Shown piece after piece: positions 29,630 to 31,003 of a stretch of DNA of 39,063 nt (position 1 is the stretch's first letter; each line of letters starts with the position of its first letter). This DNA is from Candidatus Abzuiibacterium crystallinum (lineage in GTDB: Bacteria > Omnitrophota > Omnitrophia > Omnitrophales > Abzuiibacteriaceae). The stretch spans positions 1 to 39,063 of the forward strand of contig PCVY01000063.1 of assembly GCA_002787155.1 (NCBI GenBank), in the 5' to 3' direction. A model generated the notes under the pieces. It ran no database searches. It worked only from the letters and a program-made list of their open reading frames with translations, and had not been told where the DNA came from. The position numbers and the translations under genes are program-made.

Positions 29630-30436
29630 ATGGAAAACCATGAGAATAACCAATATTTTGATATGGAAAAAAACGACCGCGATGCTGTCATCGGCTACTT
29701 GCTCAATTCGCTCATTCATGCGCGGCAGGCATGCGGCATGCCTTCTAATGAAAAAGGCTATGATGAAGACGTCAATATCTACCTGGCGCACTTACTTTTT
29801 GCGTTGTCGCTTCCGGATTATCGAGGACTCACCAGACGTTATCTTAAGATCAATGCAAGTGATCTCATGGATTTGGTACAGCAAAACGATGACAAAGTCA
29901 TTCGTTACTTTATTTATAAGGTGAATGCCGATTATTTGCTCGTTCATTTGGGCATCTTTAATGATCTCACGGCAGATAGGCCGCACATGGTGCACAAGAG
30001 TGAAAAGCAGTTTATTGAAATGGGCCAATCCTATTATGACCATGCGGCTCAATACAATCATTTGATTTATCGCAAACCAACTGCTGTCAGTGACGTTTTA
30101 GACAAATTAGCGCAGGGTTTTCAGGACTATCAGCATATTTTGCACACGGTACGCCGTGAATATTTTCAAGTGATTGAAAAAATGAAACATGCGCCCGGAG
30201 AGTTCTCAATTCAAGTCCCGGGCGAAACACAAACACCCGATCACGAAAAAATGGTTAAAGAAAAACAAGATGCTTTTCTGGATTTGTATGGTGCATGGCT
30301 GGCTTCTAAATCAAAAGACCTCATCCCTCAAATGGTGAGGTTGGTTGAAGAAATTAAGGCTTTGGATCCAAATTTCGGTTTTGATATCCATTTGATTTAT
30401 CCATCAAATCAAAGTTCAAAGGGGAGGGAAGAATGA
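29630..30436 (+). CDS. Hypothetical protein, 268 aa, first of a shared-module cluster
   Basis: I cannot name this family. The protein is soluble, with no signal peptide or membrane helix, and looks largely helical. An N-terminal region (about 15-140, including EDVNIYLAHLLFAL and YKVNADYLLVHLG) is followed by a helical middle (about 140-205) and a C-terminal module at 216-251 that recurs, without gaps, in the next two genes. AAAGG at 29617-29621 supports the ATG. It overlaps the next gene by ATGA. A regulator, scaffold or assembly function is possible, but there is no catalytic motif to support a guess. Confidence 0.75.
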   Translation: MENHENNQYFDMEKNDRDAVIGYLLNSLIHARQACGMPSNEKGYDEDVNIYLAHLLFALSLPDYRGLTRRYLKINASDLMDLVQQNDDKVIRYFIYKVNADYLLVHLGIFNDLTADRPHMVHKSEKQFIEMGQSYYDHAAQYNHLIYRKPTAVSDVLDKLAQGFQDYQHILHTVRREYFQVIEKMKHAPGEFSIQVPGETQTPDHEKMVKEKQDAFLDLYGAWLASKSKDLIPQMVRLVEEIKALDPNFGFDIHLIYPSNQSSKGREE

Positions 30437-30600
30437 GAATAACGTCACGGTTAGAAAAGGAATTTCTGAAACTATACTCAAAATGGCACGAAACCCATGA
30501 CGAGGCGCTGAAGAATCGTTTGTATTCCAGCATGGGCCGGCTCATGGCTATCGAGCCAAGCTTTGATTTTAGGCAAATGCTTTGGCAGGTGCTTTCGTAA
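30433..30600 (+). CDS. Hypothetical small protein, 55 aa, shared-module
   Basis: This gene encodes 55 residues, nearly all of which form the module seen at the C-terminus of the preceding protein. FLKLY at 11-15 is followed by Trp18, Ala39, Glu41, Pro42, Phe44 and Phe46 at the same spacing. The ATG overlaps the preceding stop (ATGA), and a strong GGGGAGGGAAG ribosome binding site lies at 30421-30431. The protein is predicted to be helical and soluble. Coupling, the ribosome binding site and similarity to both neighbours make it a real gene. Confidence 0.7.
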   Translation: MRITSRLEKEFLKLYSKWHETHDEALKNRLYSSMGRLMAIEPSFDFRQMLWQVLS

Positions 30601-30628
30601 ACGTTTCAATCGTCAAGGAGAACCAGGC

Positions 30629-30823
30629 ATGGAAATCTACTTATATGTCCTAGATGCCAATGAAACAGCCGGTTTAAGTGCTCATTTAGAGCAAAAGAAA
30701 AATGAACTCTTAGACATCTATTCCCTTTACCTCAAAACACGCATTCCTGCCGTTAAAGAAGAAGTCATTCATAAAGCCTTTGAACTCCATGCCCGCGATT
30801 CTCGTTTTTGCTTTGTTATCTAA
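30629..30823 (+). CDS. Hypothetical small protein, 64 aa, shared-module
   Basis: This 64-residue product carries the same module as its two upstream neighbours. LLDIY at 27-31 is followed by Tyr34, Ala55, Asp57, Phe60 and Phe62. The first ten residues (MEIYLYVLDA) look like an added beta-strand. AAGGAG at 30615-30620 stands eight bases before the ATG and decides the start; a longer in-frame reading from 30563 overlaps the previous gene. The function is unknown. Confidence 0.68.
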   Translation: MEIYLYVLDANETAGLSAHLEQKKNELLDIYSLYLKTRIPAVKEEVIHKAFELHARDSRFCFVI

Positions 30824-30827
30824 TTGA

Positions 30828-30848
30828 GGTCGGGGAGTTCTCCCGGCC
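30828..30848 (+). terminator. GC-rich hairpin after the unknown cluster
   Basis: GGTCGGG pairs with CCCGGCC (one G-U pair) around a short loop, five bases after the stop codon at 30823. No T-run follows, so termination would be imperfect or need Rho. Confidence 0.35.
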
Positions 30849-30856
30849 CTTCACCC

Positions 30857-30927
30857 TGAGCAAGCGAATGAAGTGAGCGCGTCGAAGGGTTTCTTAAGGT
30901 AATCCTTCGACTCGCTTCGCTCACTCA
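30857..30927 (+). repeat. Imperfect inverted repeat, dispersed-palindrome type
   Basis: The left arm (core 30870-30889) and the right arm (30904-30927) are reverse complements apart from a four-base gap, sharing AGTGAGC and GTCGAAGG blocks. Motifs of the kind CCTTCGACTCGCTTCGCTCA occur as dispersed palindromes in many environmental genomes. It lies between the unknown cluster and the dapL promoter. Confidence 0.65.
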
Positions 30928-30974
30928 TCTAATTGCGCTTTGTCCATACCTTGTGAAATGTTGTCCGCGCTTGA

Positions 30975-31003
30975 TTGACACCTCTTCCATCCATCAGTAT
31001 AAT
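30975..31003 (+). promoter_or_regulatory. Consensus promoter of dapL
   Basis: TTGACA (30975-30980) and TATAAT (30998-31003) match the sigma70 consensus in all twelve bases, with 17 bases between. Transcription would start near 31010, leaving a leader of about 43 bases with GAAAGGG at 31041-31047 before dapL. This is the strongest promoter in the window. Confidence 0.88.

Follow-up and report, generated by a model that had tools for sequence, protein, structure and literature searches.

Classical microproteins, described mainly in eukaryotes, dimerise with their relative. Rop/ROM proteins form helical-hairpin dimers, and Rop, which is plasmid-borne, binds RNA. In beta-carboxysomes, CcmM occurs as a long form and as a short form with only the repeated SSUL modules, the latter being made by internal translation of one gene.

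Here we analysed a window of 39,063 nucleotides from Candidatus Abzuiibacterium crystallinum (contig PCVY01000063.1, positions 1 to 39,063) in which a large protein, P1, is followed by two mini-proteins, P2 and P3, that are ancient stand-alone copies of its C-terminal hairpin, kept beside it (Table 1). As in microproteins, each of P2 and P3 consists of a single domain and is a paralogue of one domain in a larger neighbour; here, however, two distinct examples sit next to the parent gene, and any interaction with P1 is putative. With Rop/ROM they share a length of about 55–65 amino acids, a two-helix hairpin (predicted for P2 and P3) and heptad hydrophobic spacing, but a search of the PDB gave no sequence relation and the likeness is that of predicted single chains. 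As with CcmM, full-length and module-only forms come from one locus, whereas P1, P2 and P3 are encoded by separate, diverged genes, their fold and sequence being unrelated to those of CcmM. Uncultured lineages are already known to carry families that are near-universal yet uncharacterised (PMC10849945), and the present locus resembles the lineage-specific FESNov families of that study in being near-ubiquitous in an uncultured lineage, with a kept gene context, low dN/dS and no characterised member. That study treats single families, whereas the unusual part here is that a full-length protein is accompanied by two mini-copies, both ancient and each a gene of its own.

Table 1 Features of the P1–P2–P3 locus, in window positions
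Feature	Position	Strand	Description
P1	29630..30436	+	268-aa all-helical protein (predicted); N-terminal domain ~8–187, low-confidence linker 188–202, C-terminal hairpin 203–245
Module copy 1 (P1 C-terminal hairpin)	30230..30391	+	Module-profile and P3-profile matches
P2	30433..30600	+	55-aa basic mini-protein, module copy 2
P3	30629..30823	+	64-aa mini-protein, usually acidic, module copy 3

The open reading frames of 268, 55 and 64 amino acids and the ATGA overlap of P1 and P2, which had been claimed in the original prediction, were confirmed on the window sequence. A purine-rich ribosome-binding site lies 5′ of P2, and AAGGAGA precedes the ATG of P3. An 86-amino-acid form of P3 with a TTG start, listed by the open-reading-frame finder, was rejected in favour of the 64-amino-acid ATG form because Met1 is invariant in 32 of 32 aligned orthologues. 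In most genomes P1 and P2 overlap by 4 to 26 nucleotides (4 or about 20 in most), and P3 usually starts ≤45 nucleotides from P2. P2 and P3 share one reading frame in nine genomes, and at locus L054 all three genes are in one frame. The overlaps in most genomes, together with the kept order P1–P2–P3, imply translational coupling of P1 and P2.

Judged from their sequences, the three proteins carry a homologous module of about 45 residues. When the window sequences alone were aligned locally against 2,000 shuffles, scores as good as the real one were obtained once for P1–P2, never for P1–P3 and ten times for P2–P3. The best gapless three-way alignment of 30 residues (starting at P1 215, P2 10 and P3 26) scores 85, as against 21 ± 9 and a maximum of 49 in 500 shuffles. 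Profiles of orthologues, compared using hhalign, match the P1 C terminus to P2 (E = 2.9e-9) and to P3 (E = 1.4e-10), and P2 to P3 (E = 6.2e-6). The refuting condition attached to the original prediction, a lack of significant similarity after composition correction, did not hold. The profile similarity extends over the whole module, free of gaps, in all three proteins. A module profile recognises the P1, P2 and P3 of the window at E values of 8.8e-19, 1.3e-17 and 2.3e-16, respectively, the match inside P1 spanning 30212–30391; the P3 profile matches P1 at 30230–30388 (E = 1.8e-5). No further module copies were found by hhalign within the P1 N-terminal domain.

The residue pairings first proposed, Tyr220–Phe249 in P1 with Tyr15–Phe44 in P2 and Tyr31–Phe60 in P3, are correct. 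Of the shared positions listed with them, the Ala at +24 is not conserved in orthologues. Among the latter the signature is F-L-x-x-Y-S-x-[W/Y] ... L-[D/E]-P-x-F-x-[F/L], in which the [W/Y] position is W in P1 and P2 and Y in P3, and hydrophobic positions are spaced 4-3-4-3 in both module helices. P2 is basic in all 26 sequences (median pI 10.8), the median pI being 5.0 for P3 and 6.2 for P1; the P2 and P3 of the window are themselves less charged (+2 and −2). P3 is better conserved than either of the other two copies, with a mean column identity of 49% compared with 39% for P2.

Across the 47 genomes of the host's order in the Omnitrophota, P1 is found in 43, P3 in 33 and P2 in 27 (one copy, in G041, spans an assembly gap); many of these genomes are incomplete, so that counts of absence are upper bounds. 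The 46 P1 loci divide into 23 with both mini-genes, 9 with P3 only, 3 with P2 only and 11 with neither, and no P2 without P1 was found among the genomes of this order. A lone P3 lies between RecO and the aminotransferase in one genome that is 91% complete (G006), with neither P1 nor P2 detectable. The order AspS–PhoH–YbeY–RecO–P1–(P2)–(P3)–aminotransferase–FolK–PanC–PanD–NadX–UvrA is kept. The profile search of related genomes that was proposed with the original prediction thus found the small open reading frames to be conserved, and the trio in the same order in many genomes. Searching the genome contigs with the single P1 sequence gave no match; the P1 alignment gave matches. The order includes Candidatus Omnitrophus fodinae SCGC AAA011-A17 (L079, genome G013), which is placed in the class Omnitrophia (PMC10066038). 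At loci of genus g11 that lack P2 (L031, L037 and L043), a conserved, secreted-looking protein of about 121 amino acids is encoded between P1 and the aminotransferase. Chance matches in relatives fell in giant open frames of 35,113 amino acids (G018:C37, near 183636–184229), 10,379 amino acids (G021:C28, near 31181) and 4,984 amino acids (G032:C49, near 37765); giant open reading frames have previously been reported for Omnitrophia (PMC10066038).

When 163 modules were placed in a tree based on 62 columns, constructed by a quick method and with most forks unresolved, the P2 sequences formed one clade (SH-aLRT 95); its one odd row, L025, represents a P2 whose reading crosses a gap in the assembly. 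The P3 sequences likewise form one clade (SH-aLRT 99), which also takes in a small protein encoded by a genome from the same class as the host and another order (G048). On the basis of these single clades, each mini-gene probably had a single origin, which for P3 may predate the host order. Values of dN/dS are 0.07–0.13 for P1 (ten closest orthologue pairs) and, for unsaturated close pairs, 0.08–0.26 for P2 and 0.04–0.13 for P3, with 0.04 in the closest P3 pair; all three genes are under purifying selection.

AlphaFold2 predicts P1 to be all-helical (45 sequences; mean pLDDT 87.5, pTM 0.70), with the helices of the C-terminal hairpin at residues 203–226 and 229–245, and a Foldseek comparison of this fold with the PDB and viral structures gave no match at E ≤ 0.001. 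P2 and P3 were folded as a single chain from locus L053, with the stop codon read as glycine and 49 alignment rows. Each half is predicted to be the P1-type two-helix hairpin alone, with helices at 2–25 and 28–44 in the P2 half and at 80–104 and 107–123 in the P3 half, and with pLDDT mostly >90 in both; a helical hairpin is thereby predicted in each of the three copies. The tethered chain as a whole has a pTM of 0.47 and no confident relative placement of the hairpins, a weak test with only 9 paired rows. A duplicated helical module with one full-length and two miniature forms, as originally proposed, is borne out by the helical prediction, the clades and the kept gene order; the accompanying idea that the three proteins bind each other is plausible but unproven.

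P1 is a real, conserved all-helical family without known relatives. Its best Pfam match, TSNAXIP1_N, scores 17.4 bits against a cut-off of 27, and this and the other weak match, DUF7701, were rejected as sub-cut-off hits owing to coiled coils or chance. NCBIfam matches are far below the cut-off, the PDB searched by sequence holds nothing better than E ≥ 0.03, PADLOC gave no match at E ≤ 1, and a search of the literature found nothing on the P1/P2/P3 family. The description of the locus as undescribed therefore holds for Pfam, NCBIfam, PADLOC and the PDB as searched, and the uncharacterised protein system that it encodes is real. A phage origin was also rejected: no relative was found in viral contigs, and matches to PHROG families are scattered and to single members only.

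Across 384 genomes of the Omnitrophota, the module is either the P1 C terminus or stands alone as a small protein, in open frames of about 60–130 amino acids. The stand-alone modules are in families f43, f18, f55, f52 and f62, all without detectable P1, and carry an extra helix before the hairpin, so that their match to P1 begins at about residue 190. Among the 384 genomes the module was not found fused to another large protein; large open frames with the module are P1 itself or upstream extensions of small genes. Neighbours of the stand-alone modules vary between lineages. At about ten loci of family f43 (L163–L174; about 4150–4620 in L163), a conserved gene for a protein of about 127 amino acids directly follows the stand-alone module, in the order UvrD-like helicase gene, module gene, ~127-amino-acid gene, GpsA, homoserine dehydrogenase and threonine synthase; its product is a possible candidate partner of that module.

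Relatives of P1 with 30–37% identity are encoded in Eisenbacteria (45 of 47 genomes), Krumholzibacteriota, Latescibacterota and Effluviviacota. A second, more divergent P1 copy is present elsewhere in the genome in G440–G446 and G448 (Eisenbacteria) and in G384. In 28 genomes of these other phyla the module is found only inside P1, once per P1 copy, and none has a stand-alone small module. At about 31 of 40 loci (several on short contigs), P1 is usually transcribed divergently from a gene for a signalling-type membrane protein, which adjoins P1 or lies one gene away and has a weak HAMP or MCP match, or none in some cases. Other neighbours encode a CheW-domain protein, a response regulator with GAF and HD domains, a nitrilase and IMP dehydrogenase. 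Divergent MCP-like, CheW-domain, HAMP-like and response-regulator/GAF/HD genes form a conserved cluster 5′ of P1 (L096–L140) in Eisenbacteria, Krumholzibacteriota, Latescibacterota and relatives, and this cluster is possibly a degenerate chemosensory system. This context may reflect common descent alone, and the MCP-, CheW- and HAMP-like neighbours are only a lead towards signalling.

Our preferred reading, which we advance tentatively, is that the hairpin serves for interaction and that a mixed helical bundle is assembled from P1, P2 and P3. A hairpin of roughly 45 residues, with heptad-spaced hydrophobic residues in both helices, should be stable only against a second hairpin or the surface of another protein, and this is what points to a mixed bundle. 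Joint translation of the three proteins, whose genes overlap or lie close to each other, would be followed by assembly, with the C-terminal hairpin of P1 acting as the contact domain. The mini-proteins, P2 being basic and P3 usually acidic, would pair with that hairpin or with each other, and the pairing would set the number of P1 molecules that are joined. Such pairing is favoured by the heptad hydrophobic positions and by the opposite average charges (pI 10.8 versus 5.0). It cannot be strictly obligatory, given the independent losses of P2 and P3 and the occurrence of modules free of P1; the module itself does not need P1, since it stands alone in Omnitrophota genomes in which P1 is not detectable. 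A more far-reaching form of this proposal, which we consider rather unlikely, is that the trio makes up a dedicated hetero-oligomeric machine whose all-helical fold is new, its assembly controlled by two ancient mini-copies, and that P1 belongs to the uncharacterised core proteome of several uncultured phyla (Eisenbacteria, Krumholzibacteriota, Latescibacterota and part of the Omnitrophota), possibly tied to chemosensory-like signalling.

The absence of confident docking in the tethered P2–P3 pair (a weak test) and the independent loss of the two mini-genes make a shared outside partner a serious rival, nearly as likely as the mixed assembly. The hairpin would then dock on one separate protein or nucleic acid and not on other hairpins; P1 would bring its large helical domain, and P2 and P3 would occupy or block the same site, in microprotein-like competition with their full-length relative. 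This would suit the stand-alone modules in families without detectable P1, the genome that keeps P3 without P1 or P2, and the unusual constraint on P3 (dN/dS in the closest pair and column identity relative to P2). However, no candidate for such a partner was found, the stand-alone modules have neighbours that vary by lineage, and simple competition needs no translational coupling of P2 to P1.

That coupling also weighs against a clearly less probable account, in which tandem duplication of part of P1 gave rise to P2 and P3, which then took on separate functions (the basic P2, for example, as a small nucleic-acid-binding protein), remaining together only because the RecO-to-DapL region was inherited intact. 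Conservation of the whole block AspS–PhoH–YbeY–RecO ... DapL–FolK–PanC–PanD–NadX–UvrA means that proximity alone proves little, and the two mini-proteins differ in charge and signature and were lost independently. Yet P2 was found only in the company of P1, and in most genomes its start codon lies within the P1 end, which goes beyond what regional inheritance needs. Two small genes, an overlap and one basic product beside one usually acidic one give the locus a superficial likeness to a toxin–antitoxin pair, but this or any other defence module of small adjacent genes is very improbable: PADLOC has no match, no relative was found in viral contigs, a fixed position among housekeeping genes in most genomes of the order and retention across it are found in place of a mobile or patchy distribution, and the two mini-proteins share homology with one another as well as with P1. 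Chance resemblance of non-conserved open reading frames, the least probable account of all and one with nothing found in its favour, is refuted by the orthologue profiles, and the shuffles, the occurrence of the genes across the order, the clades in the module tree and the dN/dS values also speak against it.

Retention of P1 in 45 of 47 Eisenbacteria and in most genomes of one Omnitrophota order makes a basic role likely. P2 and P3 are a clue to how P1 works, in that they would mark its C-terminal hairpin as the functional contact surface, and as small, easily made proteins they could be used to find the partner of P1. The locus further offers a clean case, in bacteria, of a domain duplicated into two separate micro-paralogues that have remained next to their parent gene throughout an order.

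Downstream of P3, a perfect sigma-70 consensus (TTGACA, 17 nucleotides, TATAAT) at 30975–31003 precedes the aminotransferase gene, which probably has its own promoter and a start 3′ of the TTG listed at 30975. A single operon of P1, P2, P3 and the aminotransferase gene was considered and is unlikely, owing to this promoter. Between P3 and the aminotransferase gene, at 30843–30935, lies a 93-bp element with palindromic parts that recurs in the same genome as two near-full copies (93–94% identity) and two partial ones, and looks like a REP-like dispersed repeat.
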